From the NCBI RefSeq assembly GCF_003688895.1, contig NZ_REFV01000004.1, positions 186,001-250,000 on the forward strand: a DNA stretch of 64,000 nt. The letters run 5' to 3'. The notes under the pieces were generated by a model that did not search any database, had not been told where the DNA came from, and worked only from the letters and a program-made list of their open reading frames with translations. The position numbers and the translations under genes were made by a program. Below are positions 1,827 through 61,972 of this stretch, in pieces. Within the stretch, counting starts at the first letter, position 1. Each line of letters begins with the position of its first letter. This DNA is from Dokdonia sinensis. Lineage in GTDB: Bacteria; Bacteroidota; Bacteroidia; Flavobacteriales; Flavobacteriaceae.

Positions 1827-1842
1827 CGCTTTCGCGAAAGCG
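1827..1842. repeat. 16-bp palindrome copy 1 (intergenic)
   Basis: Perfect CGCTTTCGCGAAAGCG just after the UDG-like gene. It is one of 15 copies of the 14-bp core in the window. There is no T-run beside it and no room for a loop, so it is unlikely to be a terminator. Confidence 0.95.
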
Positions 1843-1886
1843 TAAACACCCTAAAATCCATAAATTCACGTTATCCATAAAAAACT

Positions 1887-3296
1887 ATGACAATGAATAT
1901 AAAAGCCCTACTAATCCTACTACTCTCTGTTCTTACCTTTTCTTCTTGTACAACAGATATAGATGATGAAATAAGAATCTCTTCTGCTACAGAAATTTCG
2001 GACTTCGTATATCGTGGCTTAAACTTTTGGTCACTTTATAAAGGAGATGTGCCAGCACTTGCAAACGACGCGTTTGCATCTGACGGTGAGCGCAGAGAAT
2101 TCCTAGAACAGTTTGCAACTCCTGAAGATGCCTTTGAAGCGTTAAAATCTCAAAGAGACCGTTTCAGCATATTGAGGTCAGATTATATTGAACTTGAAAA
2201 TGCTCTTGCTGGAATTCGAACCTCGACAGGGATGCGATTTTCTATTGTAGAAGACCCAAATAGTAATAATCTTTTTGGCGTTGTACGTTATGTAATTAAT
2301 AATAGTCCGGCAGCTACTGCTGGAGTAGAGCGTGGTATGCTTTTTACTGCTGTAGATGGTGTAGCTCTTACAGACAACTCCGACCTAAATGCAATTTTTG
2401 GAGCAGACGCATATACTATAAACCTTGCAGATTACGACGGTACGAATTTTACTTTAAATGGCAATGATATTCCACTAACTCAAGCACAACTTAACATCAA
2501 CCCTGTACATAAAGTCTCTGTGACTGAGGTGCAAGGAAAAACAATAGGTTACCTGCATTACACAGGTTTTACAAATGAATTTGATACACAGCTTAACGAA
2601 GCTTTTGGAACATTTAAGGCTTCGGGTGTGACAGATTTGATTTTGGACTTACGTTATAATGGTGGTGGTTCTATAGAAACGGCAAATGACCTATGTACGA
2701 TGATTACAGGGCAGTTTGAAGGTCAGGAATTCATAACCCAGGAGTACAATGAGGATCGTAATCCAGACAACGAGTTTACACGTCGCTTTAATAATAATTT
2801 AGGTAGTGGCAATGATGGTCCCGCAATCAATAGCCTAAACCTTAATGAGGTTCAAGTTATAACCACGGGCAACACAGCATCGGCCAGCGAACTTATCCTG
2901 AGCGGTCTCCGCCCATATATCTCGATTAATCAAATAGGAACCACGACCGAAGGAAAATTTGAAGGTTCATTCTTGCTATATGATGCCCCAGCTCCTAACT
3001 TTAGACGCTCAGATGCGAACCTAGGACATCGTTACGTAATGCTACCTCTCGTCTTAAAATCCATAAACGCCGATGGGTTTACCGATTACTTTAACGGCAT
3101 TGCACCCAACACAGAAATTTCAGAAAACGCCTTTAACTTGGGCGTTCTGGGAGAAACCAGTGATCCATTAACGCAAGCGGCTTATGATGCTATTTTGGGA
3201 AGAAGAAGCTCCATTGATTTAGACTTCCCGCGATTAAACTCGGCTTATGAAAGCGATGAGAATGACCTGCTTTACCAACGTATGATTGTGGATTAG
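1887..3296 (+). CDS. S41-family C-terminal-processing-type peptidase, lipoprotein
   Basis: 469 aa with a lipoprotein signal (hydrophobic stretch, then FSSC with Cys21). A PDZ-like segment lies at about residues 120-175 (NSPAATAGVERGMLF...VDGVALT). The S41 catalytic region has DLRYNGGGSIETA and GNTASASELILSGLRP, carrying the SASE-type nucleophile motif, followed by TTEGKFEGS supplying the likely lysine. This family cleaves proteins near their C termini in the periplasm or at the outer membrane. The gene stands alone, 68 bases after the previous stop, and is followed by a strong shared hairpin. Its substrate cannot be read from sequence. Confidence 0.9.
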   Translation: MTMNIKALLILLLSVLTFSSCTTDIDDEIRISSATEISDFVYRGLNFWSLYKGDVPALANDAFASDGERREFLEQFATPEDAFEALKSQRDRFSILRSDYIELENALAGIRTSTGMRFSIVEDPNSNNLFGVVRYVINNSPAATAGVERGMLFTAVDGVALTDNSDLNAIFGADAYTINLADYDGTNFTLNGNDIPLTQAQLNINPVHKVSVTEVQGKTIGYLHYTGFTNEFDTQLNEAFGTFKASGVTDLILDLRYNGGGSIETANDLCTMITGQFEGQEFITQEYNEDRNPDNEFTRRFNNNLGSGNDGPAINSLNLNEVQVITTGNTASASELILSGLRPYISINQIGTTTEGKFEGSFLLYDAPAPNFRRSDANLGHRYVMLPLVLKSINADGFTDYFNGIAPNTEISENAFNLGVLGETSDPLTQAAYDAILGRRSSIDLDFPRLNSAYESDENDLLYQRMIVD

Positions 3297-3387
3297 TAAT
3301 GCATATACCGCTACCGAAAGGAATTTGGTATAAATTTCTGCAAATCTCGTGCTGAGCGAAGTCGAAGTAGCGAAAACACAATAAAAT

Positions 3388-3420
3388 AAAATCGCCTGAG
3401 TGCTATACTCAGGCGATTTT
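3388..3420. terminator. Bidirectional intrinsic terminator
   Basis: A 13-bp perfect stem (AAAATCGCCTGAG / CTCAGGCGATTTT) with a 7-base loop and A/T tracts on both sides. It sits between the convergent S41 peptidase and the BtuG-like gene and can serve both strands. Confidence 0.85.
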
Positions 3421-3455
3421 TGAATTTAGTAGGATACAATACTCTTTACTCCAAA

Positions 3456-4841: not shown

Positions 4842-4844
4842 AAT

Positions 4845-7273: not shown

Positions 7274-8464
7274 ATGAAATCGAAAACGAAAACGAAAATC
7301 AAAACCATACCCTTGAAAAACACCCTCTTCATCATCAGCCTATTCATTCTGTTTTCTTGCAAACAGCAAACACGAGTCGAAACGTCCAAAACGGCTTTAG
7401 TTTCATCTCCTACAATCACTCAGGCGCAAGGTTTCAGCATTGCAGACAATGGGGATTACAAGACGATACGCGTGACGGGAGCTTTTCCTGAGCAAGAACG
7501 ACCATACACTTATATTGTGATGGATAGTTCGCTTTCGCGAAAGCGGAAACAAGAAATAAAAAAGTTTTCTGCGTCAGCGCATATTGAAGTTCCTGTTTCT
7601 AGTATTGTAGTAACGTCTACTACGCATATTCCTTCATTAGAAATGCTGGGTGTGATAAATGCGCTGGTTGGGTTTCCGAATCACGACTACATATCCAGCC
7701 AAAAAACGCGTGACCGCATTAAGGCGGGAGCTATCAAAGAATTGGGACAAAATGAATCCATAAATACCGAAGTTACGATAGACCTAAATCCAGATGTTGT
7801 GGTAAGTTTTGGCGTAGAAGGTGAAAATAAAGCGATGGAATCTATTGCTAGATCAGGAATTCCGGTGCTTTACAATGGCGATTGGGTAGAGCAAAACCCG
7901 CTAGGGAAGGCGGAGTGGATCAAGTTTTTTGGAGTGCTTTTCGGTAAAGAAATAGTGGCCGATTCCATTTTTGCGGAAATAGAAAGAGACTATATAGAAA
8001 CTAAAAAGCTGGCGCAAGGCGTACAGAAAAAACCCACGGTGATGAGCGGTGCGATGTTTAAAGACGTGTGGTATCTCCCGCACGGAAACAGCTGGCCCGC
8101 CAAAATGATAGCCGATGCCGGTGGTAACTATTTATGGAAGGACACCGAGGGTACTGGAAGCATCTCCCTAAGCATCGAATCTGTACTGGAAAAAGCACAG
8201 ACGGCAGATTTCTGGGTGGCTCCCGCACAGTATGCTAGCTATTCCAAACTGGAAAAAGACAATCCTGTATATGCCAAATTTGAGGCTTTCCAGAACCGAA
8301 AAGCCTACACCTTTGCCACAAAAAAGGGAGAAACCGGCGGATTATTGTACTACGAACTTGCTCCAAATCGACCAGATTTAGTACTCAAAGACCTTGTACA
8401 TTTCTTGCACCCCAACCTTCTACCCGATTACGAACCTCAGTTTTTTACGCCTCTTGGAGAGTAG
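7274..8464 (+). CDS. btuF: Cobalamin ABC transporter substrate-binding lipoprotein (BtuF-like)
   Basis: 396 aa with a charged N terminus, then a hydrophobic stretch ending FSCKQQ (lipobox Cys29). The body is a class III periplasmic binding protein: SSIVVTSTTHIPSLEMLGVINALVGFP, then IDLNPDVVVSFG, a helix, and a second lobe with WYLPHGNSWPAKMIADAGGNYLW. It is followed directly by a FecCD-type permease and ATPase. The neighbouring riboswitch-controlled btuB points to cobalamin, although such proteins can also carry iron-siderophores. The start at 7274 is preceded by the duplicated leader. A palindrome copy at 7530 encodes LSRKR in a surface-type segment. Confidence 0.8.
   Translation: MKSKTKTKIKTIPLKNTLFIISLFILFSCKQQTRVETSKTALVSSPTITQAQGFSIADNGDYKTIRVTGAFPEQERPYTYIVMDSSLSRKRKQEIKKFSASAHIEVPVSSIVVTSTTHIPSLEMLGVINALVGFPNHDYISSQKTRDRIKAGAIKELGQNESINTEVTIDLNPDVVVSFGVEGENKAMESIARSGIPVLYNGDWVEQNPLGKAEWIKFFGVLFGKEIVADSIFAEIERDYIETKKLAQGVQKKPTVMSGAMFKDVWYLPHGNSWPAKMIADAGGNYLWKDTEGTGSISLSIESVLEKAQTADFWVAPAQYASYSKLEKDNPVYAKFEAFQNRKAYTFATKKGETGGLLYYELAPNRPDLVLKDLVHFLHPNLLPDYEPQFFTPLGE
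7530..7545. repeat. 16-bp palindrome copy 2 (in btuF-like gene)
   Basis: Perfect CGCTTTCGCGAAAGCG inside the BtuF-like gene, read in the frame giving LSRKR. Confidence 0.95.
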
Positions 8465-10566: not shown

Positions 10567-11970
10567 ATGTCCGAAACGCTTACCTTTTTCATTATCGCCA
10601 TCATCTGCCTCATTGTAGGCGCTGTGCTGGGTATGTTCATTGCAAATCTGAAAAAGAAAAGTGAGCTGGGCGGGATTACAGAACGGCTCAATCAGGAAGA
10701 AATGAAGGTGGTGGAACTTAGGGACGCTTTCGCGAAAGCGCAACAAGAAACCACGCAACTCCGCTCTGAAAATGCAACGCAAATCGAAAAGTTACGCAGT
10801 CAGTTTGGAGAAGAAATCAATACGGTACGCAAGGAAAAAGACTTCTTCCAAAACGAACTTACCGCACGAAACGTAGCTTTTGAAAATCTCGAAAGTCGGA
10901 TGAACGAGAAGACCGAAGAACTCGAAAAACTACAGGAAAAGTTTACCAAAGATTTTGAGATTGTCGCACAGAAGATACTAGATGACAAGTCAAACAAATT
11001 TACGCTTCAGAACAAGCAGAACCTAGATATCATCCTGAAACCACTACAAGAAAAGATACAGCATTTTGAAAAGCGTGTCGAGGAAACAAACAAGGAAGCG
11101 ATAGATCGAACATCTGCGCTACGTGAGCAAATTAAGGGACTCACGGCACTTAACGAGCAAATGTCTAAGGAGGCAAACAACCTTACTAAAGCCCTTAAAG
11201 GAGACAGCAAGACACAAGGAAACTGGGGCGAACTCGTACTCGAACGTGTGCTTGAAAAATCGGGGCTAGAAAAAGATAGAGAGTACTTCTTGCAACAAAG
11301 TTTTACAAACGAAGATGGAAATCGCGTCTTGCCTGATGTGGTGATTCACCTGCCAGACAACAAGAAAATGATTGTAGACAGTAAAGTGTCCTTACGTGCC
11401 TACGAACGTTATGTAAATGAAGAGGATCCGCACTTGAGAGATGGTCATTTAAAAGAACACGTAAATGCCCTGAAACGTCACGTCGTACAACTGGGCGCCA
11501 AAAATTACCACGATCTCTACCAGATAGAAAGTCCTGACTTTGTCCTGCTTTTTATCCCTATAGAACCTGCCTTTGCCATTGCGATAAATAGTGACAACCA
11601 GCTCTACAATCAGGCGTTTGAGAAGAATATTGTTATCGTTACTCCTTCTACCCTACTTGCAACCTTACGCACCATAGACTCTATGTGGAACAACGAGAAA
11701 CAACAACAAAATGCACTGGAGATTGCCACTCAAGCAGGAAGATTGTATGATCAGTTTGTAAATCTTACAGACGATTTAATTAAAGTGGGGAATCAACTCC
11801 GTACCGTGCAAGGAAGTTATGATGGTACAATGAAGAAACTCACGGGTCAAGGCAATTTGATAAAAAAGGTGGAGAAACTCAAAAAATTAGGAATCAAACA
11901 GAAAAAACACATTAACGAGAAACTTGTAGAAAGAGCCACGGGCGACGATACACTATCTCTAGAAGAATAG
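10567..11970 (+). CDS. rmuC: DNA recombination protein RmuC
   Basis: 467 aa. An N-terminal membrane anchor (LTFFIIAIICLIVGAVLGMFI) is followed by a coiled coil of about residues 30-190 rich in E/K/Q, then the RmuC domain with GNWGELVLERVLEKSGL, LPDVVIHLPDNKKMIVDSKVSL and IVTPSTLLATLRTI. RmuC family proteins are predicted nucleases that limit inversions at short repeats. A palindrome copy at 10725 encodes AFAKA inside the coiled coil, where it fits the helical pattern. The following small gene starts 5 bases after the stop. Confidence 0.92.
   Translation: MSETLTFFIIAIICLIVGAVLGMFIANLKKKSELGGITERLNQEEMKVVELRDAFAKAQQETTQLRSENATQIEKLRSQFGEEINTVRKEKDFFQNELTARNVAFENLESRMNEKTEELEKLQEKFTKDFEIVAQKILDDKSNKFTLQNKQNLDIILKPLQEKIQHFEKRVEETNKEAIDRTSALREQIKGLTALNEQMSKEANNLTKALKGDSKTQGNWGELVLERVLEKSGLEKDREYFLQQSFTNEDGNRVLPDVVIHLPDNKKMIVDSKVSLRAYERYVNEEDPHLRDGHLKEHVNALKRHVVQLGAKNYHDLYQIESPDFVLLFIPIEPAFAIAINSDNQLYNQAFEKNIVIVTPSTLLATLRTIDSMWNNEKQQQNALEIATQAGRLYDQFVNLTDDLIKVGNQLRTVQGSYDGTMKKLTGQGNLIKKVEKLKKLGIKQKKHINEKLVERATGDDTLSLEE
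10725..10740. repeat. 16-bp palindrome copy 3 (in rmuC)
   Basis: Perfect CGCTTTCGCGAAAGCG, read in frame as AFAKA within the RmuC coiled coil. Confidence 0.95.
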
Positions 11971-14293: not shown

Positions 14294-14307
14294 GCTTTCG
14301 CGAAAGC
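14294..14307. repeat. 14-bp palindrome copy 4 (intergenic, beside carB)
   Basis: Perfect GCTTTCGCGAAAGC between the carB stop and its terminator hairpin; the right flank continues GTACTCAAACTTAG, similar to the composite repeat tail. Confidence 0.95.
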
Positions 14308-19081: not shown

Positions 19082-19097
19082 CGCTTTCGCGAAAGCG
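19082..19097. repeat. 16-bp palindrome copy 5 (intergenic)
   Basis: Perfect CGCTTTCGCGAAAGCG, 12 bases after the stop of the Gly/Arg-tailed gene. Confidence 0.95.
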
Positions 19098-21429: not shown

Positions 21430-22083
21430 TTAATCATTTTCAATAAGTTGCAAAAGGTTTTTGTTAAACCATTTTGCCTTTGTTAGAATCATTATGTGTG
21501 TTCCGCCAGGAATTGTAATACAGCTCTCAATATAACGTTTTGGGAAAACAGCATCTGCATCTCCGTGTATATGAATTATACCTTCTGGCGGATTTTCTTG
21601 ATCCCAACATATCATATTTTCGACAGCCCAACGCATATAATGTCTATCATTCATAGATAGGTATTTTTGGTAAAGTGCGACCCGGTGTTTAACGCTTTCT
21701 CCTAAAGCATATTTTGCGAGGGTGTCAATATCTTCAACTAATCTCGTGGGTAGGATTTTATAAAGTTTAAGCTTTCGCGAAAGCTTCATTCTACGCGGTA
21801 ACTCGTGCTTGCTTTTTACACTACTTACTATAATGAGCTTTTGCACCTTAATATGTTTTGCCATCTCTTGAACGATAACTCCTCCAAAACTTACCCCTAA
21901 CAGCACAATGTCACTATGCTTTACAAAAGCTGTCATTCTGAGCGCATAATCTTCAATAGATTCTTTAGAATTAGGAACTATCCATTCTAAACGGTGAACG
22001 GTTACACGATCCTTAGGTAATATAATGTGCTCAAAAATAGATGGGTTTGCCGCCATTCCTGGCATAAGATACATGTGCGTCAT
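21430..22083 (-). CDS. Alpha/beta-hydrolase family protein
   Basis: 217 aa. LLGVSFGGVIVQEMAKHI contains the nucleophile elbow GVSFGG, HIHGDADAVFP fits the acid loop, and PGGTHIMI supplies the catalytic histidine. The beginning, MYLMPGMAANPSIFEHIILP, resembles the oxyanion-strand segment. It is a small cytoplasmic hydrolase of unknown substrate. A palindrome copy (21771) encodes KLSRKL in a basic stretch. Confidence 0.82.
   Translation of the reverse strand: MTHMYLMPGMAANPSIFEHIILPKDRVTVHRLEWIVPNSKESIEDYALRMTAFVKHSDIVLLGVSFGGVIVQEMAKHIKVQKLIIVSSVKSKHELPRRMKLSRKLKLYKILPTRLVEDIDTLAKYALGESVKHRVALYQKYLSMNDRHYMRWAVENMICWDQENPPEGIIHIHGDADAVFPKRYIESCITIPGGTHIMILTKAKWFNKNLLQLIEND
21771..21784. repeat. 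14-bp palindrome copy 6 (in hydrolase gene)
   Basis: Perfect AAGCTTTCGCGAAAGCTT context; the frame gives KLSRKL. The flanking AA/TT extends the symmetry. Confidence 0.95.
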
Positions 22084-27582: not shown

Positions 27583-27596
27583 GCTTTCGCAAAAGC
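27583..27596. repeat. Degenerate palindrome copy
   Basis: GCTTTCGCAAAAGC, one substitution (G to A) from the perfect 14-mer; intergenic, just downstream of trmD. Confidence 0.7.
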
Positions 27597-33089: not shown

Positions 33090-33869
33090 ATGACAATCCC
33101 TTTCTCAAAATATCAAGGAACCGGAAATGACTTTGTCATCATAGATAACCGACAGGAATTATTTGCCAAAAATGATACCAAACTCATTGCGAGGATGTGT
33201 GACCGAAAATTTGGCATAGGAGCAGACGGATTGATACTGCTTGAAAATCATCGAGATACCGATTTCCGAATGGTGTATTATAATGCAGACGGGAATGAAA
33301 GCTCGATGTGTGGTAATGGGGGGAGATGTATTGTTGCTTTCGCGAAAGCGTTATCCCTCATATCCCACTCCACAACTTTTATGGCCATAGATGGCTTGCA
33401 CGAGGCGCAGATTAAGGGCGATATCGTGTATCTAAAAATGCAGGATGTAAATAATATAAAATCTACTGCCGAATACACTTTTCTTGACACCGGCTCCCCG
33501 CACCATATCGAATTGTGTGAAGACGTAAAAAACATAAATGTAAAAGCAGAAGGTGCAGCCATACGATACAGCAGCCTTTATGGAGCGGCGGGAAGTAATG
33601 TAAATTTCGTCACACCGCTTCAAGAGGATACTTTTGCCGTACGGACCTATGAACGCGGTGTGGAAGACGAAACTTTAAGTTGCGGCACAGGAGTAACAGC
33701 TGTGGCGCTTGCGATGCACAAACAAGGAAAGACACATTCTAAAAAAATAGAACTTCAAGTAGAAGGCGGTAAGCTCTATGTGAGCTTTGAACCTTACGAG
33801 GATGGGTACCACAATATTTATCTTATAGGCCCGGCACAACTTGTCTTTAAAGGAACTTGGGAATGTTAA
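33090..33869 (+). CDS. dapF: Diaminopimelate epimerase
   Basis: 259 aa. The two active-site cysteines are present, in NESSMCGNGGRC (Cys74) and LSCGTGVTAVALA (near 217), with FSKYQGTGNDFVIID at the N terminus. It converts LL- to meso-diaminopimelate for lysine and peptidoglycan. A palindrome copy (33336-33349) lies a few bases after the first active-site motif and encodes AFAKA in the conserved helix following RC. First gene of a tight dapF-GNAT-mltG cluster; a -7-like TATTTTTG is at 33062-33069. Confidence 0.96.
   Translation: MTIPFSKYQGTGNDFVIIDNRQELFAKNDTKLIARMCDRKFGIGADGLILLENHRDTDFRMVYYNADGNESSMCGNGGRCIVAFAKALSLISHSTTFMAIDGLHEAQIKGDIVYLKMQDVNNIKSTAEYTFLDTGSPHHIELCEDVKNINVKAEGAAIRYSSLYGAAGSNVNFVTPLQEDTFAVRTYERGVEDETLSCGTGVTAVALAMHKQGKTHSKKIELQVEGGKLYVSFEPYEDGYHNIYLIGPAQLVFKGTWEC
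33336..33349. repeat. 14-bp palindrome copy 7 (in dapF)
   Basis: Perfect GCTTTCGCGAAAGC directly after the active-site segment GNGGRC; frame AFAKA. Confidence 0.95.
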
Positions 33870-39725: not shown

Positions 39726-39741
39726 CGCTTTCGCGAAAGCG
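39726..39741. repeat. 16-bp palindrome copy 8 (intergenic)
   Basis: Perfect CGCTTTCGCGAAAGCG between divergent folP and the DUF1599 gene; the flanks extend to GTA on the left and TAA on the right. Confidence 0.95.
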
Positions 39742-40395: not shown

Positions 40396-42126
40396 ATGAA
40401 AATACTCGTAACCATTGCTCGCATTTTTGTGGGTGTCCTTTTTATTTTTAGCGGTTTTATAAAACTGAATGACCCTGTGGGTTTTGGCTACAAGTTGCAG
40501 GAATATTTTAGTCCAGAAGTTCTCAATCTCGAATTTTTATCGCCCTATGCCCTTCTTATGGCCATTATCCTTGTGGTAGTCGAAGTTTTGCTGGGTGTTG
40601 CCCTACTCATAGGATATGCCAAAAAAATTACGCTCTGGCTATTGCTAGCGATGATTGCATTTTTCACCTTTCTCACCTTCTACTCTGCTTATTTTAATAA
40701 AGTTACGGACTGCGGATGTTTTGGTGATGCTATTCCGCTCGTGCCTTGGGAGTCATTTATCAAGGATGTGATTTTGCTCATTCTTATTATCTTCTTAATG
40801 CTTTTCCAAAAGCATATTACCCCTCTTTTTAGTAAGACGGCGCGTAGTATTATTGTTTTCGTTGCATTTTTTGCCTCAATGATCTTTGGCTATTATGTGT
40901 TAATGCACTTGCCTTGGCTCGATTTTAGAGCCTATAAAGTTGGAAATAACATCGCCGAGGGAATGAAAATTCCTGAAGGTGCTCCAGAAGCCATTTTTGA
41001 ATATGACTGGAAGTTTAATATAGATGGGGAAGAACAAATCATTACAACAACTGGCGGTTATCCACAGGTAGAAGGCAAATTTATAGGGTATGAAACCCGC
41101 CTGGTTCAAGAAGGTTACGAGCCACCTGTACACGACTTTACGATAGAAAAAAACGGTCAAGATTACACGACCAAATTTCTAGAAATGGAAAACCTTATCG
41201 TCATCGTAGCCTACAACATAGACAAAACAGAGACCGAGGGTTACGGTAACATTAAGCGGGCGGTAGAGCGCGCGATGAAAGCTGGTTACACCGTGATAGG
41301 AATGACGAGTAGCGGTGAGGATGTTTATAACGCTTTCGCGAAAGCGTACGAACTCCCATTTGACTTCTACTTTACAGATGAGACGGTTCTTAAAACCATT
41401 ATTCGCTCCAATCCAGGAATTGTAAGTCTGAATAAAGGAACCATCATCCAAAAGCTACACTACAACGACGCCGAAGATTTAGAACTTAAAGAACTACCTA
41501 CTGCAAATCCTAAATTAGACGTTGATCTCAAATTTACCTTAGACAGTATCGCCGTGCTCGACCAGCGATATCGTAAGTTAATGCAAACAAACGACGAGGC
41601 CGAACGAGCAGAAATGGGAAAGCAAATGGGCTTACAACCCGAGGATTACACCGGTAATCTCTGGGAGCGTCAGATTGCTATAGACACAATGAGCCTCAAA
41701 ATGGTAAAGCGCATTATAGCAAAGCACGGCTATCCAGGTAAGACTCTTGTAGGCGAACCGACGAATACCTCTGCTTGGTATGTAATACAGCACAATCCAG
41801 AAGAAATTCCAACATATTTACCGCTTATGCAAGAGGCTGGAAAAAACGGCGAACTACCGTTTACGCTAGTTGCAATGATGGAAGACCGCTATCTTATGAA
41901 TGAGGGCAAACCCCAAAAATATGGCACACAAGGAATGACATATGGCGGTAGTCCATCGTTTATTTGGCCCATTGAGAATCCGGAAGAAGTAAATGAAAGG
42001 CGCGCCGAAGCAGGTTTTAACCAAACCATTGAGGAATATGCTTCTGATTTATTTGGAGAGGATTTTAATTTTGAGAACATCTCTCTACAAGAAGCCGAAC
42101 AGCGTCGCATCGCGTCTACAAAATAA
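40396..42126 (+). CDS. DoxX-family membrane protein with thioredoxin-like extension
   Basis: 576 aa. The N-terminal about 170 residues have four to five membrane segments with the DoxX motif IFVGVLFIFSGFIKLNDPVGFGYKLQEYF. The C-terminal 400 residues are soluble, with a middle section (NLIVIVAYNIDKTETEGYGNIKRAVERAMKAGYTVIGMTSSGEDVYNAFAKAYELPFDFYFTDETVLKTIIRSNPG) built like a peroxiredoxin/thioredoxin fold but without a CxxC. The palindrome at 41331 encodes NAFAKAY in that fold. Four bases precede the ABC permease start region. Role unknown, possibly a quinone-linked redox membrane process. Confidence 0.82.
   Translation: MKILVTIARIFVGVLFIFSGFIKLNDPVGFGYKLQEYFSPEVLNLEFLSPYALLMAIILVVVEVLLGVALLIGYAKKITLWLLLAMIAFFTFLTFYSAYFNKVTDCGCFGDAIPLVPWESFIKDVILLILIIFLMLFQKHITPLFSKTARSIIVFVAFFASMIFGYYVLMHLPWLDFRAYKVGNNIAEGMKIPEGAPEAIFEYDWKFNIDGEEQIITTTGGYPQVEGKFIGYETRLVQEGYEPPVHDFTIEKNGQDYTTKFLEMENLIVIVAYNIDKTETEGYGNIKRAVERAMKAGYTVIGMTSSGEDVYNAFAKAYELPFDFYFTDETVLKTIIRSNPGIVSLNKGTIIQKLHYNDAEDLELKELPTANPKLDVDLKFTLDSIAVLDQRYRKLMQTNDEAERAEMGKQMGLQPEDYTGNLWERQIAIDTMSLKMVKRIIAKHGYPGKTLVGEPTNTSAWYVIQHNPEEIPTYLPLMQEAGKNGELPFTLVAMMEDRYLMNEGKPQKYGTQGMTYGGSPSFIWPIENPEEVNERRAEAGFNQTIEEYASDLFGEDFNFENISLQEAEQRRIASTK
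41331..41346. repeat. 16-bp palindrome copy 9 (in DoxX-family gene)
   Basis: Perfect CGCTTTCGCGAAAGCG; frame AFAKA. Confidence 0.95.
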
Positions 42127-43316: not shown

Positions 43317-44066
43317 ATGAGAAAAAATATAGTAGCCGGAAACTGGAAAATGAACAAGGATCTCCCAGAAACTATTGCGCTGGCAGAGGAACTTAAAAAA
43401 CAAGAAAATACAGGAACGGCAGAGGTTATCGTGGCTCCTACGTATGTTAGTTTGTATGCGGCTTATGAACGCTTTCGCGAAAGCGGAATTACCGTCGCCG
43501 CCCAAAATATGCACCAAGCTACAAGTGGTGCTTATACTGGGGAAATAAGCGCAGGGATGCTTAAAAGCGTAGGTGTAGAAACGGTCATTTTAGGCCACAG
43601 CGAGCGCCGTGCCTATTTTGCCGAAGGCGATGAACTCCTTGCCAAAAAAGTAGACACAGCTCTCGAAAATGAAATGCGCGTAATTTTCTGTTTCGGAGAA
43701 GAACTAGAAGAACGAAAAGGAGAAAAACACTTTGACGTTGTGGAAAGCCAACTCAAAAACGCCCTTTTTCATCTCCCAGCAGATGCCTGGAAACATATTG
43801 TTCTTGCTTATGAACCTGTATGGGCCATCGGAACTGGTGAAACCGCATCTCCTGAGCAAGCGCAAGATATGCACGCATTCATTAGAAAGACTGTTGCAAC
43901 AAAATATAACGAAACCGTTGCCGATGATGTAGCCATACTCTACGGTGGCTCAGTAAAGCCTAATAATGCAAAAGAAATTTTCTCAAAGCCAGATGTAGAT
44001 GGTGGACTCATAGGCGGTGCTTCACTTAATGCAGAAGACTTCTTTGCAATCGTAAATGCGTTTTAA
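43317..44066 (+). CDS. tpiA: Triosephosphate isomerase
   Basis: 249 aa. N terminus RKNIVAGNWKMNKDL (Asn, Lys of the active site), ILGHSERRAYF with the catalytic His, AYEPVWAIGTG with the catalytic Glu, and ILYGGSVKPNNA for phosphate binding. It interconverts dihydroxyacetone phosphate and glyceraldehyde-3-phosphate. A palindrome copy (43470-43485) encodes ERFRESG on a surface helix. A TACCTTTG -7-like motif lies at 43290-43297. Confidence 0.97.
   Translation: MRKNIVAGNWKMNKDLPETIALAEELKKQENTGTAEVIVAPTYVSLYAAYERFRESGITVAAQNMHQATSGAYTGEISAGMLKSVGVETVILGHSERRAYFAEGDELLAKKVDTALENEMRVIFCFGEELEERKGEKHFDVVESQLKNALFHLPADAWKHIVLAYEPVWAIGTGETASPEQAQDMHAFIRKTVATKYNETVADDVAILYGGSVKPNNAKEIFSKPDVDGGLIGGASLNAEDFFAIVNAF
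43470..43485. repeat. 16-bp palindrome copy 10 (in tpiA)
   Basis: Perfect CGCTTTCGCGAAAGCG; frame RFRES. Confidence 0.95.
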
Positions 44067-44192: not shown

Positions 44193-44711
44193 ATGAAAAT
44201 TTTACTCGGTTTTACATCCCTTATATTCCTATTTACATCTTGCGGAACACAACAAACGATTACTGCTCAAAATACAGACGGTTCAGTTACACTATTTGAT
44301 AATGGTGCTAGCCACGTTATCATTGCGCCAAATGGCAATGTAGGCATCGGGCAAAAAAATCCGCAGGATAAGCTGGAGGTCAATGGGCAGATACACGCAA
44401 AGTCTGTAAAAGTAGATTTAAAGGAGTGGGCAGATTTTGTTTTTGAAGATGGTTATGATTTGACTCCATTGCCCGAGCTTGAGCAATTTATTAAAACGAA
44501 CGGCCACTTACCTGACGTACCTTCGGCGGGCGAGGTTGCAAAGGATGGGATTGAACTCGGTGCGATGAATAGATTGCTACTTCAAAAAATTGAGGAACTC
44601 ACACTGCACCTCATTCAAAAGGAAAAAGACATAGACTCGCTTTCGGCTAATTATTATAATCTTTTAAAGCGCGTAAAAGTTCTAGAAACTAAGACCCCTA
44701 AAGAAGACTAA
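44193..44711 (+). CDS. Lipoprotein with tail-fibre-like repeat and coiled coil
   Basis: 172 aa from ATG 44193; the lipobox is IFLFTSCGTQQ. NGNVGIGQKNPQDKLEVNGQIHAKSVKV is the beta-repeat found at the base of trimeric fibres and S74-type chaperone tails, and the C terminus is a coiled coil (MNRLLLQKIEELTLHLIQKEKDIDSL). Such domains are frequent in flavobacterial surface proteins. The stop and the next ATG share a base. Confidence 0.78.
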   Translation: MKILLGFTSLIFLFTSCGTQQTITAQNTDGSVTLFDNGASHVIIAPNGNVGIGQKNPQDKLEVNGQIHAKSVKVDLKEWADFVFEDGYDLTPLPELEQFIKTNGHLPDVPSAGEVAKDGIELGAMNRLLLQKIEELTLHLIQKEKDIDSLSANYYNLLKRVKVLETKTPKED

Positions 44712-46336
44712 TGCGGTATTCTCTTGTAATTGCTCTTGTTGTTTCCTTTTTCGCGAAAGCGTTATTATCATCGTTATATGCACAAGATGACAGGTTTTAC
44801 ATACGCGCCGTTACTGATGATATTGAGATTCCAACCTCAGCAAGTGATTCTGTGGTGAGCTACGAAGGAACCGATACCCGATTGCAAAAGCTGTTTAACA
44901 AGCACAATGTAAAAGTCTTTAGACGAGGCTTCAAATTTGCTGAGAGAGACAAACTAAAACGCACCTTTTTTGGGATTGCGACAACGCAAGAATTTCAAAG
45001 TGACTTATTAAAACTGACTGATCTTTTTGAATTTGGCGAAAGCTTTACTGCCCAAAGTCTCAAGATTTATGAACCCAACGATTATGGACAAACCAGCGTC
45101 ACTGGGCAAGGGCTAGGTGCAAATGCATTCCTGGATTATTACGATTTTATAGATGTACCAAAAGCGTGGTACTACACCACGGGTAGTCCAGATATTATCG
45201 TTGGTATTTCTGATGCTATTGTAGACCCAGACGATCCAGAGTTTGCCGGCAAAACAAAACAGATTACAAAAAGTAGTTATTCCCACGGACACGGGATGAG
45301 CGTAGGAGCCACAGCGGTGGCAAATGGCGATAATGGGATAGGAATTCCAGGTGTATGTTACGATTGTAGCGTCGTAACTGCAAATTACGGTAGCTTTAAA
45401 GAGCTCAAACCACTTGTCACGCTGGCAAATGCGGGAGCAAGAGTCATTAACTGTAGCTGGGGAAGCACCCGATACTATGATACTGCACAAGAGGTTATCT
45501 ATGAACTTGCGGCAAAAGGTGTTGTGGTGGTCTCGCTACCTCACAATAAATCGTATAATAAAACCAAAGGGAAAATGATACACTATCCCGGCGGTTATGA
45601 TAAGGTCATAAATGTAGGCTCCATACAGCATCGTAATCCTGATGCGTTAGAGTCTGTAAAGATAGAAGAGCGCAATGGTAAATATTACTTTGCAAACGTG
45701 GCAAACTATCTGGGTGCTCACGGTGGTTTTAAGGATAATGACCTGACTAAGGAAATGAAGTTTTATGAAATTTCTATAAATAACCTAGACTCCACGGTAG
45801 ATATTATGGCGCCTGGAACCTTTATATTCAGATACGGGCGTTACGCAGAAAATAAGCGCGAGGCTCTATATAATCTATCACCAGCTACATCCCCTTCGGC
45901 GCCTCTGGTTACGGGGACTATCGGCTTGATGTTATCCCTTAATCCCTGCCTTTCGGTAGACGAGGTGGATAGTATTATAAAACTAACTTCCACAAATATT
46001 GACTCTATTTATGTAAATAAACCTTACTATGGTAAATACGGAGCAGGTACTTTAAACACGGGACGTGCGGTCAAGATGGTACACAATATGCTGGAGTTTT
46101 CTGAGTATGCAACGATCCAGAATCAAGATTTTGCTAGATGGGATTTAACGATGGATGCGCCTTATAAAGTAAAATTGCGAGAAGTCCGCTTTCGCGAAAG
46201 CGTAAACCTCAACATTACCGCTCGCGAGGAAATTAAGATCGAAGAAGAAACTGTACTTTTGCCCTCCGAAAATGGAAGTATCTTTTTAGGTATTGATCCG
46301 AAAGCCAGATACGACTGTAAAAATTTCTCACAATGA
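44711..46336 (+). CDS. Exported subtilisin-like serine protease (S8)
   Basis: 541 aa with a signal peptide (LVIALVVSFFAKALLSSLYAQ). The triad is Asp in VGISDAIVD, His in SSYSHGHGMSVGATAVA and Ser in ATSPSAPLVTGTIGLM. The frame-coupled start (TAATG) links it to the lipoprotein, and its own end overlaps prmA by 4 bases. There is a half-palindrome in the signal peptide (44750) and a perfect copy near the C terminus (46187, VRFRESV). No T9SS tail is visible. Confidence 0.9.
   Translation: MRYSLVIALVVSFFAKALLSSLYAQDDRFYIRAVTDDIEIPTSASDSVVSYEGTDTRLQKLFNKHNVKVFRRGFKFAERDKLKRTFFGIATTQEFQSDLLKLTDLFEFGESFTAQSLKIYEPNDYGQTSVTGQGLGANAFLDYYDFIDVPKAWYYTTGSPDIIVGISDAIVDPDDPEFAGKTKQITKSSYSHGHGMSVGATAVANGDNGIGIPGVCYDCSVVTANYGSFKELKPLVTLANAGARVINCSWGSTRYYDTAQEVIYELAAKGVVVVSLPHNKSYNKTKGKMIHYPGGYDKVINVGSIQHRNPDALESVKIEERNGKYYFANVANYLGAHGGFKDNDLTKEMKFYEISINNLDSTVDIMAPGTFIFRYGRYAENKREALYNLSPATSPSAPLVTGTIGLMLSLNPCLSVDEVDSIIKLTSTNIDSIYVNKPYYGKYGAGTLNTGRAVKMVHNMLEFSEYATIQNQDFARWDLTMDAPYKVKLREVRFRESVNLNITAREEIKIEEETVLLPSENGSIFLGIDPKARYDCKNFSQ
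46187..46202. repeat. 16-bp palindrome copy 11 (in S8 protease gene)
   Basis: Perfect CGCTTTCGCGAAAGCG; frame RFRES. Confidence 0.95.
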
Positions 46337-50140: not shown

Positions 50141-50677
50141 ATGATTATGAAACCTAAAGATTTACATAACGACAAACCTAACTTTAAGTTACCAGATGGC
50201 TATTTTAATAGTTTTGCTGAGGAACTGAGTGCTCAGATTGCTCTAGAAAAAGTATTGGGCGGAAAGGCGAAGTTAGGTTTTGATATCCCAGAGGGTTATT
50301 TTGAAAGTTTTGAAGGTAGAATGAGTACGCTTTCGCGAAAGCGCATACTTAATAATAACACAGAAAACACCAAGGTCATTAAACTTAACTCAAAAAAATG
50401 GCTCTGGACCGCTGCTAGTATCGCCGCAATAGCATTAGTTATTATCAGTGTTTTCCCTTGGTCAACTGCTGAATCACCTACATTTGATTCATTAGAAATT
50501 GCCGAAATTGAAGCTTATGTGGAAGACCGAGACATTGCATTTTCAGATTATGAGTTAGGAGATATGCTTACTGATGATGCCTTTGAAAGTCTAGAAAGCA
50601 CAGCATACATAGAGGATGCAGCGCTTGTAGAATATTTAGAAAATAACTTAGAAGATGGTTCCATCTTTATAGAATAA
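50141..50677 (+). CDS. Putative anti-sigma/regulatory membrane protein
   Basis: 178 aa with one transmembrane segment at about residues 87-106 (WLWTAASIAAIALVIISVF). The cytoplasmic part has two copies of a motif: FKLPDGYFNSFAEEL and FDIPEGYFESFEGRM; the external part is strongly acidic. The topology and its position right after an ECF sigma gene suggest an anti-sigma factor, though no zinc motif is visible. The palindrome at 50328 encodes TLSRKRI just before the membrane segment. Confidence 0.7.
   Translation: MIMKPKDLHNDKPNFKLPDGYFNSFAEELSAQIALEKVLGGKAKLGFDIPEGYFESFEGRMSTLSRKRILNNNTENTKVIKLNSKKWLWTAASIAAIALVIISVFPWSTAESPTFDSLEIAEIEAYVEDRDIAFSDYELGDMLTDDAFESLESTAYIEDAALVEYLENNLEDGSIFIE
50328..50343. 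repeat. 16-bp palindrome copy 12 (in putative anti-sigma gene)
   Basis: Perfect CGCTTTCGCGAAAGCG; frame LSRKR. The left flank GTA and right flank CATAC partly extend the symmetry. Confidence 0.95.
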
Positions 50678-54706: not shown

Positions 54707-57700
54707 ATGATCCACTTCTTTGGCAACCCTAACAGCACTGTTTATGCGGTGCAAGCAACTCAAGAATTTAATCAAGAAGATACCGCAAAGCTTGTATGGC
54801 TTTTCGGCAACTCTCAAAAAATAGAAGCGTCTCATATTGACGCTTTTTTTATTGGCCCTCGTGCTGCGATGATCACTCCGTGGAGTACAAATGCAGTGGA
54901 GATTACTCAAAATATGGGCATTTCGGGTATTGTGAGGATTGAAGAGTTTTCCGCTTTCGCGAAAGCGGACTCAGCAGCACTACAAACAAACACGCAACCT
55001 TTTCCGTCCATAGAGGGCACACCGACAGTCGTCACCGAAAGCAAGCCATCGTACGACCCTATGATTTCTCAAGAATATAGGACATTAAATCAAGATATAT
55101 TTAAAATAGATGTGACTCCCGATCCTATTCTTCCTATTTCAGATATTGCGGCATACAACGAGCAAGAGGGGTTATCGCTTAGTGATGAGGAAGTAGAATA
55201 CCTTGAAGGTGTAGCAACAAAAATAGGACGACCACTTACAGATTCTGAAGTTTTCGGCTTTAGCCAGGTGAACTCAGAGCACTGTCGTCATAAAATTTTT
55301 AATGGAACATTTGTTATAGACGGTGAGGAAATGCCTTCTTCTCTATTTAAGCTCATTAAAGAAACTTCAAAGGTTCATCCTAATACAATTGTCTCTGCCT
55401 ATAAAGATAATGTTGCTTTTGTAGAAGGTCCAAGAGTAACTCAATTTGCTCCAAATACGGCCGATAAACCAGATTTTTACACAGAAAAAGATTTTGATAG
55501 TGTTATCTCCCTCAAAGCCGAAACTCATAATTTCCCGACAACAGTAGAGCCCTTTAATGGTGCTGCGACAGGATCTGGAGGAGAAATACGTGACCGTCTA
55601 GCCGGAGGGAAAGGTTCTTTACCTCTTGCAGGAACGGCAGTTTACATGACACCCTTCTCAAGACTAGAAGGAGATCGCCCTTGGGAAAAGAATATGGAGG
55701 AGCGCAAGTGGCTGTACCAAAACCCGATTGACTTACTTATAAAAGCTTCAAATGGCGCTTCAGATTTTGGAAACAAGTTTGGACAACCTTTAATTGCAGG
55801 CTCTGTCCTCACCTTTGAACACCAAGAAGATGGCCGAAGATTAGGGTACGACAAAGTGATTATGCAAGCTGGAGGTATTGGATACGGGAAACGTGATCAA
55901 GCGATAAAAGATGTACCACAAGAAGGAAATAAAATTGTCATCCTCGGTGGAGAAAATTACCGCATCGGGATGGGAGGTGCCGCTGTTTCCAGTGCAGATA
56001 CTGGCGCTTTTGATTCTGGAATAGAGTTAAATGCTGTACAACGTTCCAACCCAGAAATGCAAAAACGTGCGGCAAATGCCATACGCGGGATGGTAGAAAG
56101 TGATATAAATTCTATCGTTTCTATACACGATCACGGCGCTGGAGGTCACCTCAACTGCCTTTCTGAACTTGTAGAAGACACTGGCGGACTTATAGACTTA
56201 GATAAATTACCTGTGGGCGACCCAACCCTTTCTGCCAAAGAAATTATAGGAAACGAGTCCCAAGAACGTATGGGGCTTGTGATAGGCAAACAGGATATTG
56301 ACACCCTAAAACGCATTGCAGACCGTGAACGCTCTCCTATGTATACCGTAGGGGACGTTACTAACGATCATCGATTTACATTTAAGAGCAAATCCACTGG
56401 CAGAAGTCCTATGAATCTTGCCCTAGAGGATATGTTTGGCAGTTCGCCTAAAACGGTGATGACAGACAAGACCGTAGTTAGAACCTATAAAAATCCTGAT
56501 TATCAATTAGAAAACTTTCACGATTACCTAGAACAAGTGTTACAACTTGAAGCGGTGGCCTGTAAAGACTGGCTTACGAATAAAGTAGACCGTTGTGTAG
56601 GTGGTCGCGTGGCAAAGCAACAATGTGCCGGACCACTGCAATTACCTCTTAATAATGTAGGTGTAATGGCACTCGATTTTAAAAGTGCCGAAGGTATTGC
56701 AACGTCTATAGGCCATTCGCCTGTGAGCGGTCTTATTGACCCTGTGGCGGGAAGTAAGAACAGTATTGCAGAGGCACTTACAAATATCGTTTGGGCACCG
56801 CTCAAGGATAATTTAAAATCGGTTAGTCTTTCGGCAAACTGGATGTGGCCTTGTAAAAATGAAGGAGAAGATGCTCGTTTGTATAAAGCGGTTGAGGCAA
56901 TTTCTCAAATGGCAATCAACCTAGGCATTAACGTTCCTACGGGGAAAGATAGCCTCTCCATGAAACAAAAATATCCAGATGGCGACATTATCGCACCTGG
57001 AACGGTAGTTATTTCGGCGGCTGGAAGTTGTAATGATATTAATAAGGTCGTAGAACCTGTTTTACAAAAAGACGGCGGAGCCATTTACTACATTAATATG
57101 TCTGGTGATACACACAAACTAGGAGGTTCTAGTTTTGCACAAGTATGTAAAACGATAGGAAATGAAGCGCCTACGGTGGTGGATGATGTCGCTTTCGCGA
57201 AAGCGTTTAACACCTTACAAAACCTTATTAAGGATAATAAAATACAAGCGGGACACGACGTTGCGAGTGGTGGATTAATCACAACACTCCTAGAACTTTG
57301 CTTTGCAGATGTTGATTTGGGAGCAAAACTAGATTTTACCGCACTTGGAGAAAAAGATATCATAAAATTACTATTTGCCGAAAATGCAGGAGTTGTTTTC
57401 CAGGCAGATGCTTCAGTCGAGAAAGTATTTACTGATAATAGTGTTGCATTCACCAAAATTGGAACAGTAACTGAAACGGCAGAACTCGTGATAGAAAGTA
57501 ATGGCGTTGAAATAGGATTAAATATCGCCTCACTGCGCGATACTTGGTTTAAGACCTCATATTTATTAGATGATAGGCAAACTGCAAATAGCCTTGCAAA
57601 AGACCGATTTGACAATTATAAGGAGCAACCTTTACATTATAATTTTCCAGCTAATTTTACAGGAAAACGACCTACGGTAGACCCGGCAAAACCTAGACCA

Positions 57701-59271: not shown

Positions 59272-59590
59272 AACTCAAATTTTTATAAAGTTCTGGATTT
59301 TATGCCCTCCTGAGCGTTAGGGAAAATAAAAATTGATGTTAAATACTCTAAAAACACATAGTTATCTTGAGCTTAGTCTCGGCAATAACTCTTTTTACAA
59401 AAGCAGACTAGATAAATCTATTTTTTTTGAAACATAGCATTAATGAGCATTATCGTTAGATCGACAGAATATTATCTTTGTGATTAGTTGTACATTTACT
59501 ACCCATTTCAAGTAGGAAAATCACTACTTAAAATGTTATATAGTTACAATTTGTTACCAAAATTCTTATTCCCCACAAATCTTAGACTTC
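59272..59590. other. Intergenic region upstream of the carboxypeptidase gene
   Basis: 319 A/T-rich bases. A -7-like TATCTTTG at 59473-59480 without a clear -33 could give a leader of about 105 bases. No gene, palindrome copy or strong hairpin is seen. Confidence 0.5.
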
Positions 59591-61972
59591 ATGAAACACT
59601 TTTTATTTTTAATAATCCTTGCATTTACAACGGTTAGCGTTGCTCAAATGGAAAGAGAAACTTATCAACGTGCAAAAATTTCGTTTAATGAAGATATAGA
59701 TTTAAGTCGCCTTGATGCCTTAGGTATTGCTACTGATCATGGGATTAGAAAGAAAGACCACTACCTCATAGCAGAATTTTCAAAAAATGATTTAGAACTA
59801 ATTCGTAGCAATGGCTTCCAGGTGGATGTTTTGGTTGCAGATGCTAGAGCGTTATTTTTAGAGCAAAATCGAACAAACAAAAGCACTTACAAACGTTCAA
59901 GTTGTGATGGAGACTTAGGTAATGACTACCCGACTCCAGCAAACTTTAATCAAGGTTCTATGGGGGGATACCTTACATATCAGGAAGTTCTGGATGAGCT
60001 CGATGACATGAGAGCATTGTATCCAGAACTTATTTCTGAACCGTCTGACATAAATGATTTTGTAACCGAAGGGCAACCCAATGATGCTGTGACACCATCC
60101 ATAGGTGGTAATGGTATAAAATGGGTGCGTATAAGTGATAATGCAGACACCGATGAGAATGAACCAGAGATTCTATACACTTCAATTCATCACGCTAGAG
60201 AACCCATGTCATTGATGCAAAACATATACTATATGTGGTATTTGTTAGAAAACTATGATACCGACGAAGAGATAAAAAGTATTGTAGATAATACGGAACT
60301 ATACTTTGTACCAATAGTTAATCCTGATGGCTATTTACATAATGAGTTTACTAATCCTAATGGAGGAGGATTCTGGCGTAAAAATCGTAAAAATGGAAAT
60401 GGAGTAGATAATAATAGAAATTACGATTACTTTATAAACGGAGATTCCGATAACGGTGTTTGGGGCGGAAGTGGCTCTTCTGGCAACCCATCATCAGATA
60501 TTTACAGAGGCCCAAGCCCAATTTCAGAAGTAGAAAATCAAGCTATAAAATGGTTGCTGGAGCAACATAACTTTGTGATTGCACTTAACAGTCATACCTC
60601 TGGCGAATTGTTATATTATCCATTTGCATACAATGGTCAGGCAACACCAGACGAGGCCATTTTTGTAGATATGGCAGCAGAACTCACCTCAAGAAATGAT
60701 TATTTTGAATTAAGAGATTGTTGTTTCTCCGGAGATAGTGATGATTTTATGTATGGTACTGTGGGCACTCACAATCCCATATTTGCATTTACTCCAGAAA
60801 TAGGAACTTCCTTCTGGCCACCAGCAGGTAATATTGATCCCGTTTGTAAGGAAATGATGTATCAAAATATAACGGCTGCTCGAATGGCAAACAACTACGG
60901 TCGTTTACACGAGACAGCAGCTTTGTTTACTGGTGATGAAACGAGCGCGATTGCAAGTTTTGAAATTAAAAACTTCAGCGTTAGTGGTGATGGTAATTTT
61001 ACGGTCTCTCTCAACCCTATCACGGAAAATATTACAAATTCTGGGACTCCCGTAAATTTTAATAATCTTGAGCTTCTCGCAATAGAAACTGGAATTATCA
61101 CCTATGAGATTGACCCTGCTACTACTTATGGTGATCCCGTTGTATATGAACTCATAATAAATAACGGTTTATATGACACCGCGCTGCGAGTAGAAAAAAT
61201 ATACGGATCAGCAAATCAAGTATTTACAGATGAAGGTGATAGCGTGTCGGTAAATTTTGACACAGATTCTTGGGGCACTACAAGCTCATTTTTCGTCTCT
61301 CCTTCAAGTTCTATTACAGATTCACCTAATAGGAATTACAGAAACAATGAAAATAATACTATTGAGCTTAAGGAGCCTATCGAGTTAACGGACGCAATCA
61401 GCGCCTCGGTAAGTTTTCAAGCACGATGGGATATTGAGGCAAACTTTGATTACGTCCAATTTCAGATTTCTACAGACGGTGGAAATAACTGGGAAGCACA
61501 ATGTGGGGAATTTACCTCGACGGGTGCAACTGCTCAAGACGAAGGACAACCTTTATACGATGGTGTTCAGAATGACTGGATTCGAGAGCAAATTGATCTT
61601 AGCGCTTACCTAGATAATACCATCCTAGCACGTTTTCAGCTAGTGACGGATGGCGGAAATACAGCAGACGGATTCTATTTTGACGATTTAGAGTTTACGG
61701 TTCTTAAGGATGAAGAATTGAGTGTTGATGATACCGCTTTCGCGAAAGCGTTCTCAACATACCCTAATCCTGTTTCCAATGCATTTAATATTGTAACATC
61801 ATTAAATGACTATACAATGACAATGTACAATTTGCAGGGACAACGCATTAAAACAATATCAAACTTGAGCGGTAACCAAACCATAGATTACAGCATTTAC
61901 GCCAGCGGAATGTATTTTGTACAGCTCAAGTCCCAAGGAAGAGTGACAACCGTTAAAGTCATAAAAAAATAA
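59591..61972 (+). CDS. Secreted M14 zinc carboxypeptidase with T9SS sorting domain
   Basis: 793 aa. Signal peptide (LFLIILAFTTVSVAQ), a propeptide-like region, then the M14 domain: zinc ligands in IHHAREPMSLMQNIYYMWYLLEN and ALNSHTSGELLYYPF, substrate site in VPIVNPDGYLHN and RKNRKNGNGVDNNRNYDY, and catalytic Glu in FAFTPEIGTSF. A beta-sandwich (MAM/immune-inhibitor-like, NNWEAQ...GFYFDDLEF) follows, then a type A T9SS sorting tail (FSTYPNPVSNAFNIV...GMYFVQLKSQGRVTTVKVIKK). It removes C-terminal amino acids from extracellular peptides. The palindrome at 61735 sits at the junction before the sorting tail. Confidence 0.93.
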   Translation: MKHFLFLIILAFTTVSVAQMERETYQRAKISFNEDIDLSRLDALGIATDHGIRKKDHYLIAEFSKNDLELIRSNGFQVDVLVADARALFLEQNRTNKSTYKRSSCDGDLGNDYPTPANFNQGSMGGYLTYQEVLDELDDMRALYPELISEPSDINDFVTEGQPNDAVTPSIGGNGIKWVRISDNADTDENEPEILYTSIHHAREPMSLMQNIYYMWYLLENYDTDEEIKSIVDNTELYFVPIVNPDGYLHNEFTNPNGGGFWRKNRKNGNGVDNNRNYDYFINGDSDNGVWGGSGSSGNPSSDIYRGPSPISEVENQAIKWLLEQHNFVIALNSHTSGELLYYPFAYNGQATPDEAIFVDMAAELTSRNDYFELRDCCFSGDSDDFMYGTVGTHNPIFAFTPEIGTSFWPPAGNIDPVCKEMMYQNITAARMANNYGRLHETAALFTGDETSAIASFEIKNFSVSGDGNFTVSLNPITENITNSGTPVNFNNLELLAIETGIITYEIDPATTYGDPVVYELIINNGLYDTALRVEKIYGSANQVFTDEGDSVSVNFDTDSWGTTSSFFVSPSSSITDSPNRNYRNNENNTIELKEPIELTDAISASVSFQARWDIEANFDYVQFQISTDGGNNWEAQCGEFTSTGATAQDEGQPLYDGVQNDWIREQIDLSAYLDNTILARFQLVTDGGNTADGFYFDDLEFTVLKDEELSVDDTAFAKAFSTYPNPVSNAFNIVTSLNDYTMTMYNLQGQRIKTISNLSGNQTIDYSIYASGMYFVQLKSQGRVTTVKVIKK
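61735..61750. repeat. 16-bp palindrome copy 15 (in M14 peptidase gene)
   Basis: Perfect CGCTTTCGCGAAAGCG; frame AFAKA, in the linker directly before the YPNP of the sorting domain. Confidence 0.95.

Follow-up and report, generated by a model that had tools for sequence, protein, structure and literature searches.

A highly iterated, evenly spaced palindrome with two-sided arms in Dokdonia sinensis and related flavobacteria

The described systems closest to the element reported here are the uptake signal sequences (USS) of Pasteurellaceae and the DNA uptake sequences (DUS) of Neisseriaceae, the cyanobacterial palindrome HIP1, the Chi sites and the parS/Noc sites. The element itself is a 14-bp palindrome, GCTTTCGCGAAAGC, often extended to the 16-mer CGCTTTCGCGAAAGCG, which recurs along a stretch of the Dokdonia sinensis genome (contig NZ_REFV01000004.1, positions 186,001 to 250,000 of the forward strand), hereafter the window, taken at its full length of 64,000 nucleotides.

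Chi occurs about once per 4-5 kb in E. coli, and parS/Noc sites are palindromic, are built of TTTC...GAAA half-sites and number in the tens per genome. The available portion of PMC1939737 describes uptake sequences as evenly spaced, with 65% of the H. influenzae sites in open reading frames (ORFs) and a non-coding share above expectation, with weaker conserved regions beyond the core and with a sharp drop from perfect to one-mismatch copies. HIP1 was reported from 12 genomes with extensions that were all palindromic (PMC4390886, in excerpt), and counts of short k-mers, up to about 10 bp, have been made for Flavobacterium johnsoniae and Riemerella with a view to possible uptake sequences (PMC7965970, in excerpt). 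Within the accessible text of open-licence papers, neither the 14-mer nor iterated palindromes in flavobacteria were reported; TTTCGCGAAA was printed in some, longer forms in none, highly iterated palindromes were treated mostly in cyanobacteria, and the papers dealing with Dokdonia and palindromes were not apt.

Number, spacing and symmetry of the palindrome

The initial annotation of the window had proposed an iterated motif on the basis of 15 local copies, and a genome-wide count bears this out. The 3.65-Mb genome from which the window was taken holds 857 copies of GCTTTCGCGAAAGC and none of the reversed control pattern, far from a Markov-like expectation; five third-order Markov simulations (464 kb) yielded neither perfect nor one-mismatch copies. 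All 15 exact copies in the window were recovered at the annotated coordinates and 100 dinucleotide shuffles gave none. Twelve have the 16-mer form, and 11 are genic (translated as AFAKA six times, LSRK three times and RFRES twice) with the remaining four intergenic, as annotated. Up to two mismatches, 22 matches were obtained, hence seven imperfect ones, against a chance expectation of 0.18 in all.

The even spacing that had been noted in the window is real. Over 100 consecutive copies of this genome the coefficient of variation (CV) of the gaps was 0.65 versus 0.99 for random placement, and none of 5000 simulations was as even; the corresponding values for genome G016 of the same genus were 0.62 (67 copies) and 0.99. 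Gaps shorter than 1 kb accounted for 2-3% in these two genomes instead of the expected 21-25%, and 11 of the 14 gaps in the window lie within 2-6 kb. Sixteen stretches around the complete G016 chromosome contained 2-7 copies per 20 kb, without a gradient visible by eye. Placement was scored with a simple ORF caller: 120 of 189 sites fell in ORFs (70, 33 and 17 in the three frames) and 69 in the 11.6% of the DNA outside them. Convergent, tandem and divergent gaps carried 0.73, 1.04 and 0.50 sites per kb, respectively, and since convergent gaps were not enriched, the copies are not terminators.

The symmetry of the motif extends well beyond its core. When 105 sites of the window's genome were folded on the dyad, position -1 was C in 89%, position -3 was T in 75% and position -2 was A in 53%, while from -4 to -22 the frequency of C was 0.01-0.15 (about 0.17 beyond) with G and T raised, all of this being mirrored on the other side. 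The resulting rule, approximately 20 bp poor in C on the 5' side and poor in G on the 3' side of either strand, describes the average over sites and not each site. Flanks extended to GT(A/C) and (T/G)AC had been annotated earlier; a partial TAC/GTA was indeed seen, but the description understated the symmetry, as avoidance of C/G reaches about 22 bp on each side. The same arms were found outside genes (69 sites), in the tested reading frames, in G016 (84 sites) and in a second motif-rich genus, g11 (55 sites); they were weaker in G250 (20 sites), which represents a third genus, g210, weak arms being present in all three genera (g1 denoting that of the window). Their fine sequence differs by genus, position -2 being mostly A in g1 and C or T in g11, where 82% of sites have T at position -10. 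The arms also show a weak three-base periodicity, fainter yet present outside genes, which may partly reflect codon phase, since most genic sites share one frame.

At homologous positions lacking the site, the C/G frequency in the arms was 0.109 within the genus (44 positions), 0.213 between genera (14) and 0.131 in non-bearing genomes (890), against 0.07-0.09 at actual sites. The arms therefore belong largely to the site, though C-poor places may also be preferred as locations for it. In genes, the C content is low and nearly equal on the two sides (0.072 and 0.092), which argues that the motif acts on DNA and not on mRNA. Left and right arms showed little or no covariation, and a hairpin or transcript role was rejected on this ground and for want of a clear gene-orientation effect.

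The site is also sharply defined. In 1.18 Mb of genus stretches, where some copies are orthologous and thus not independent, 278 perfect copies faced 40 with one mismatch, a nearly sevenfold ratio; 34 of these 40 changes concerned the outer two positions (24) or turned the sixth base from C to T (10), and the third and fourth core bases did not vary at all. The half-site GCGAAAGC occurred 28 times outside full sites (7.4 expected). After masking of all copies with at most three mismatches, GCGAAAGC fell to 4 (5.9 expected) and TTTCGCG to 26 (24.0 expected), with CGAAAGCG remaining at 14 (7.8 expected). Since the excess mostly disappears with the near-complete copies, it is the whole dyad that counts, as for a symmetric reader of double-stranded DNA (dsDNA). 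The inner hexamer TCGCGA was not enriched outside sites (66 versus 72.7 expected). No other palindromic 10-mer occurred more than three times per locus in 80 loci of relatives. Separately, the palindrome CCAATATTGG was observed three times, more than 300 bp apart, in roughly 21-24 kb of loci L010, L012 and L072 of other flavobacteria, either by chance or as another iterated motif.

No strand is assigned to the copies in the window. The four intergenic cores lie at 1828..1841, 14294..14307, 19083..19096 and 39727..39740, all but the second being 16-mers. Outside purL, the genic cores read as AFAKA are found at 10726..10739 (gene 10567-11970), 33336..33349 (gene 33090-33869), 41332..41345 (gene 40396-42126) and 61736..61749 (gene 59591-61972), and all have the 16-mer form except the one at 33336. 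Those read as LSRK are at 7531..7544 (gene 7274-8464, 16-mer), 21771..21784 (gene 21430-22083, minus strand, core only) and 50329..50342 (gene 50141-50677, 16-mer), and those read as RFRES, both 16-mers, at 43471..43484 (gene 43317-44066) and 46188..46201 (gene 44711-46336). The longest gap contains a one-mismatch copy, GCTTTCGCAAAAGC, at 27583..27596, which corresponds to C>T at core position 6 on the other strand, the commonest single change.

Conservation, phylogenetic spread and occurrence in phages

Sites are conserved mostly in an all-or-none manner across deep divergence. Within the genus, 334 of 451 aligned pairs had a perfect core, 43 had one or two mismatches and 74 had at least four; between motif-bearing genera, 46 of 62 pairs were perfect, and among 1508 pairs with non-bearing genomes none was perfect or one off and 12 were two off. 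These pairs are not independent, and those between genera represent few distinct loci, PurL foremost.

Two of the AFAKA copies, both 16-mers, lie in purL. The one at 57191..57204 occupies codon 828 (0-based) and was present in 11 of 14 g1 genomes, in 3/3 of g11 and in the single one of g210, and in none of 44 others; the alignment of 62 rows, 44 of them from relatives without the motif, has no gap in either direction, and the three genus genomes that lack the site have quite different codons there. With 22-bp arms on each side, a length taken from averaged profiles, its whole putative footprint would cover 57169..57226. The second copy (54953..54966) was found in 10 of 14 genus genomes, and in this genus only, within a loop whose length varies and which is absent from most relatives. 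The suggestion that the motif replaces residues instead of adding them hence stands for the site at 57191 and is ambiguous for the one at 54953. A real palindrome under selection or drive is thus supported, its origin by substitution, as had been proposed, being seen cleanly at one site, and the PurL alignment did not give the recent insertions which the initial annotation had named as the contrary outcome.

The motif is concentrated in three genera. In a first sample of 59 genomes, including that of the window, it was present in 20: in all 18 genomes of g1 (369-905 copies), in G027 (578 copies) and in G029 (6 copies). Among 397 genomes of the family, evenly drawn from a larger group, 317 lacked it, 74 had 1-19 copies and six had hundreds, namely G000 and G011 (g1), G027, G301 and G453 (g11, the last two with 664 and 609 copies) and G250 (g210, 408 copies). 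The motif was absent from 80 loci of relatives, 1.79 Mb in all, a set that may lack the records nearest the window. Scattered copies occurred in small number in G409 and G410, and small clusters in several other genera, e.g. in G029, G138, G147 and G396.

Some of these genomes call for separate remarks. G250 (loci L366-L373, 45.7% GC) carries a blurred version of the motif, in which 160 kb hold 20 perfect copies and 9 with one mismatch and the arms are weaker, perhaps a weakening system. The motif occurs 16 times in G136 and 19 times in G346, two species of genus g96, which exceeds the counts in most other non-bearing genera, and 80 kb of G136 contained none of its copies; islands or a remnant could both account for them. 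A loss of the motif in lineage g164 (G204, G388), suspected from PurL codons, was not supported, as 240 kb of G204 had no copies at up to two mismatches and 16 at three, about the rate of other flavobacteria. A single clade for the three bearing genera was rejected on a PurL and ParB tree (p-AU 0.007). This apparent non-monophyly is unsure and may reflect either long-branch trouble or an ancient presence followed by losses; the orthologous sites shared by the three genera speak for common ancestry.

The motif was also met in viral DNA. At least 120 stretches with the motif were obtained in a scan of viral contigs and 20 of the listed records were viewed whole; among the matches listed, six of these carried 3-5 copies (G059, G061 and G063-G066), two carried two (G060, G062) and 12 carried one, single copies being at chance level for so large a collection. 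The six multi-copy phage contigs reach 33-78% of the motif density of the window's own genome and have C-poor arms (0.082 jointly versus about 0.18; G059 is the least marked, with 0.118 versus 0.172). G061, G065 and G066 are relatives, G063 shares a part with them, and most sites are common to them at 76-97% identity; G064 encodes an integrase-type recombinase and a primase. The hosts of these phages would themselves be motif-bearing.

Phages of known systems served as controls. HP1 and HP2 of H. influenzae have 17 USS each (0.2 expected in each), and the Mannheimia phage PHL101 has six copies of ACAAGCGGT, which we take to be the Mannheimia-type uptake sequence, and no AAGTGCGGT (0.2 expected for each). 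The available text of PMC1939737 gives ACAAGCGGT as the uptake sequence of A. pleuropneumoniae. The E. coli phages P2, Mu and 186 have no Chi and HK97 has four, for 1.1-1.5 expected. HIP1 was absent from Anabaena phage A-4L and from 20 kb of Microcystis phage LMM01, a weak comparison since both phages are lytic. By analogy, these controls lean towards a drive resembling that of uptake sequences.

Imported or mobile DNA may offer further cases. A single contig holds all six copies of G029. Four of its stretches have a GC content of 0.38-0.40, versus about 0.445 for two on a different contig, and the stretch with the motif was probably imported from a motif-bearing relative. One low-GC stretch, L285 (G029:C18:80001-100000), holds two of these six copies, and genes identified there by eye encode a P-type ATPase and pumps for heavy-metal efflux. 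Pairs of motifs exactly 933 bp apart were observed in four other genera (G138, G161, G274 and G147), a pattern that the spread of a single mobile element out of a motif-bearing host would give.

Candidate roles and the search for a reader

Among the roles considered, a palindromic, two-armed signal for DNA uptake or for the recognition of self-DNA is placed first, since uptake sequences share the features of the motif except its symmetry and since the phage controls agree. We hold this reading tentatively, at somewhat less than even confidence; of the roles listed in the initial annotation, uptake fits best once phages are considered. In such a system CGCTTTCGCGAAAGCG and its two arms of about 20 bp would form a genome-wide recognition site for a dsDNA-binding protein of the lineage, probably a dimer. 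Fragments carrying the motif would be preferentially taken up or recombined, as with the uptake sequences of Pasteurellaceae and Neisseriaceae, and it is proposed that the site spreads in this way through point substitutions. Drive and selection would then maintain it and, as the benefit of a site would saturate once another is near, it would settle at a density of about one copy in 4 kb; the hosts' phages and mobile islands would carry it too. The wider proposal, that such a signal with a dimeric reader marks the chromosomes, phages and mobile islands of three genera of Bacteroidota and thus constitutes an uptake-sequence system outside Pasteurellaceae and Neisseriaceae, is advanced with a shade more reserve.

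Several points weigh against these proposals. Known uptake sequences are non-palindromic, according to the available text of PMC1939737. They are also shorter, with cores of some 9-12 bp. Although over-representation and even spacing are as in USS/DUS, the perfect 14-bp dyad means that the motif is not classed as a member of that group, only as working like one. Even spacing would also be expected from any drive or selection whose return diminishes near an existing site. No receptor or reader gene was found among the families searched (ParB, AddB, RecC, PF00145 and PF01555), and nothing in the sequence data indicates competence in g1. On the side of uptake, a dprA gene was found in one genus genome, G016, and Riemerella, assigned to the same family, is naturally competent. 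A dprA gene does not, however, point specifically to competence, and Flavobacterium johnsoniae showed none under the conditions of that study (PMC7965970, in excerpt). No comEC turned up in a rough pattern scan of sequence stretches, whole genomes not having been searched for it. Among the phage contigs with the motif, three of six are the close kin mentioned above, with a fourth sharing a part, and a site of G061 has decayed in both G065 and G066; the controls comprise three and four phages, and Chi in HK97 is above chance. As a side observation, the dprA gene of G016 (L293:5727-6845) itself encodes AFAKA, the peptide of the motif's main frame.

The next candidate is a chromosome-organising or segregation site, to which a dimeric nucleoid protein peculiar to the lineage, acting in the manner of TetR, Noc or MatP, would bind every 4 kb, thereby shaping, tethering or protecting the nucleoid. 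The long dyad with wide arms, the even distribution all round the G016 chromosome and the conservation of sites are consistent with it, and we regard it as a serious, if unlikely, explanation. A segregation mark suggests an origin-to-terminus gradient, but none was visible by eye, with the position of the origin undefined and no formal test made. Nor is the occurrence of similarly armed sites in phage contigs an obvious prediction. Moreover, the ParB family offers no apparent reader. In each of 30 genomes there was a single chromosomal ParB, about 300 aa long, additional longer ones occurred only in G011, G015, G029 and G204, without any extra copy shared by the bearing genomes, and ParB_N scores were lower in most of the latter. 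No alignment column separated these genomes from the others, apart from one I/V column at a loose threshold. As no change in ParB tracks the motif, a ParB/Noc reading is not supported, and a segregation mark read by ParB, which had been listed as a possible role, is disfavoured.

Improbable, and behind the nucleoid site in our ranking, is a bidirectional Chi-like site, at which AddAB or another end-resecting nuclease would halt from either side and RecA would load on each strand's 5' arm, which is rich in G and T. Proteins resembling AddB, some 900 aa long, were found in 20/20 genomes and a second, AddA-like match in 17/20 (both names being based on size and nuclease domain), and RecC was absent from 30/30 genomes; the density of about one site per 4 kb and arms that are G/T-rich and C-poor on the 5' side of the core, on both strands, and weakly periodic in threes would suit such a function, G/T-rich DNA of period three being favoured by RecA. 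On the other hand, AddB as a reader was rejected: no residue was invariant in seven bearing genomes and absent in five others, and the true labels ranked 642nd of 792 permutations. Half-sites are not in excess after masking of near-complete copies, three of the four coliphages lack Chi, and known Chi sites are non-palindromic and only 5-8 nt long. AddB (L453-L456) appears to evolve unusually fast, with 46-53% identity among G000, G016, G013 and G017, unlike PurL, for which G016, G013 and G017 are 83-87% identical to the window's.

Still less probable is a HIP1-type system, in which, according to the model of Elhai for cyanobacteria, a methyltransferase and biased mismatch repair make and keep the sites. 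The resemblance, a GC-containing palindrome spread through genes, is superficial, and the commonest single change, C>T at one core cytosine (10/40), is what deamination of 5-methylcytosine would give. A C5 methyltransferase (PF00145) was present in 7/17 bearing genomes and in 7/13 others, being lacking in 10/17 of the former, and a PF01555 (N4/N6) methyltransferase scored above cut-off in 2/17 bearing genomes, leaving 15/17 without one. As neither family, the only two methyltransferase families searched, is common to the bearing genomes, the HIP1-like methylation that had been suggested for the window is not supported. The lack of TCGCGA enrichment outside sites argues the same way, and 14-16 bp exceeds the usual methyltransferase site. 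The motif also differs in sequence from GCGATCGC and from the alternative HIPs listed in the available part of PMC4390886.

Lastly, a mobile palindromic element that inserts, of the repetitive extragenic palindromic (REP), miniature inverted-repeat transposable element (MITE) or Rickettsia palindromic element (RPE) type, is largely refuted and highly improbable, for although the PurL site at 54953 sits in a loop absent from most relatives, the one at 57191 swaps codons without gaps in 62 rows, some sites are common to different genera, perfect copies exceed one-mismatch copies sevenfold, and the arms are alike in composition and not in sequence.

Comparison with known systems

Should the palindrome prove to be an uptake or self-DNA signal, sequence-specific DNA uptake would be extended to another phylum, and a clean substrate would be available for studying gene exchange among flavobacteria. 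If it serves the nucleoid or repair instead, its density and symmetry would be unusual for such a site. In either case, the motif may act as a natural tracer of DNA that left these hosts, as the few copies clustered in other genera, and the G029 cluster in a low-GC metal-efflux stretch, are as expected of exported DNA.

With USS and DUS the motif shares its hundreds of copies, their even spacing, a genic location with an additional share outside genes, weak conservation that reaches past the core and a sharp loss with mismatches; like USS, whose host-type sequence occurs in three Pasteurellaceae phages, it is present in some phage contigs. It differs from them in being palindromic and symmetric, with a 14-16 bp core and arms on both sides, in being less dense and in having a host from Bacteroidota. 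Like HIP1 (GCGATCGC) of cyanobacteria, it is a highly iterated palindrome containing GC, but it is about twice as long, has wide arms and an inner hexamer that is not enriched, and is not accompanied by a shared methyltransferase of the two families searched. Its density and G/T-rich surroundings recall Chi (GCTGGTGG) and other Chi sites, from which it is set apart by its length, by its palindromic nature, with no strand bias possible, and by an AddB without a matching signature. Finally, it resembles parS/Noc sites as a palindromic protein site with TTTC...GAAA half-sites, and departs from them in the spacing of these half-sites, in its 857 copies instead of tens and in the company of a ParB that is essentially unchanged.

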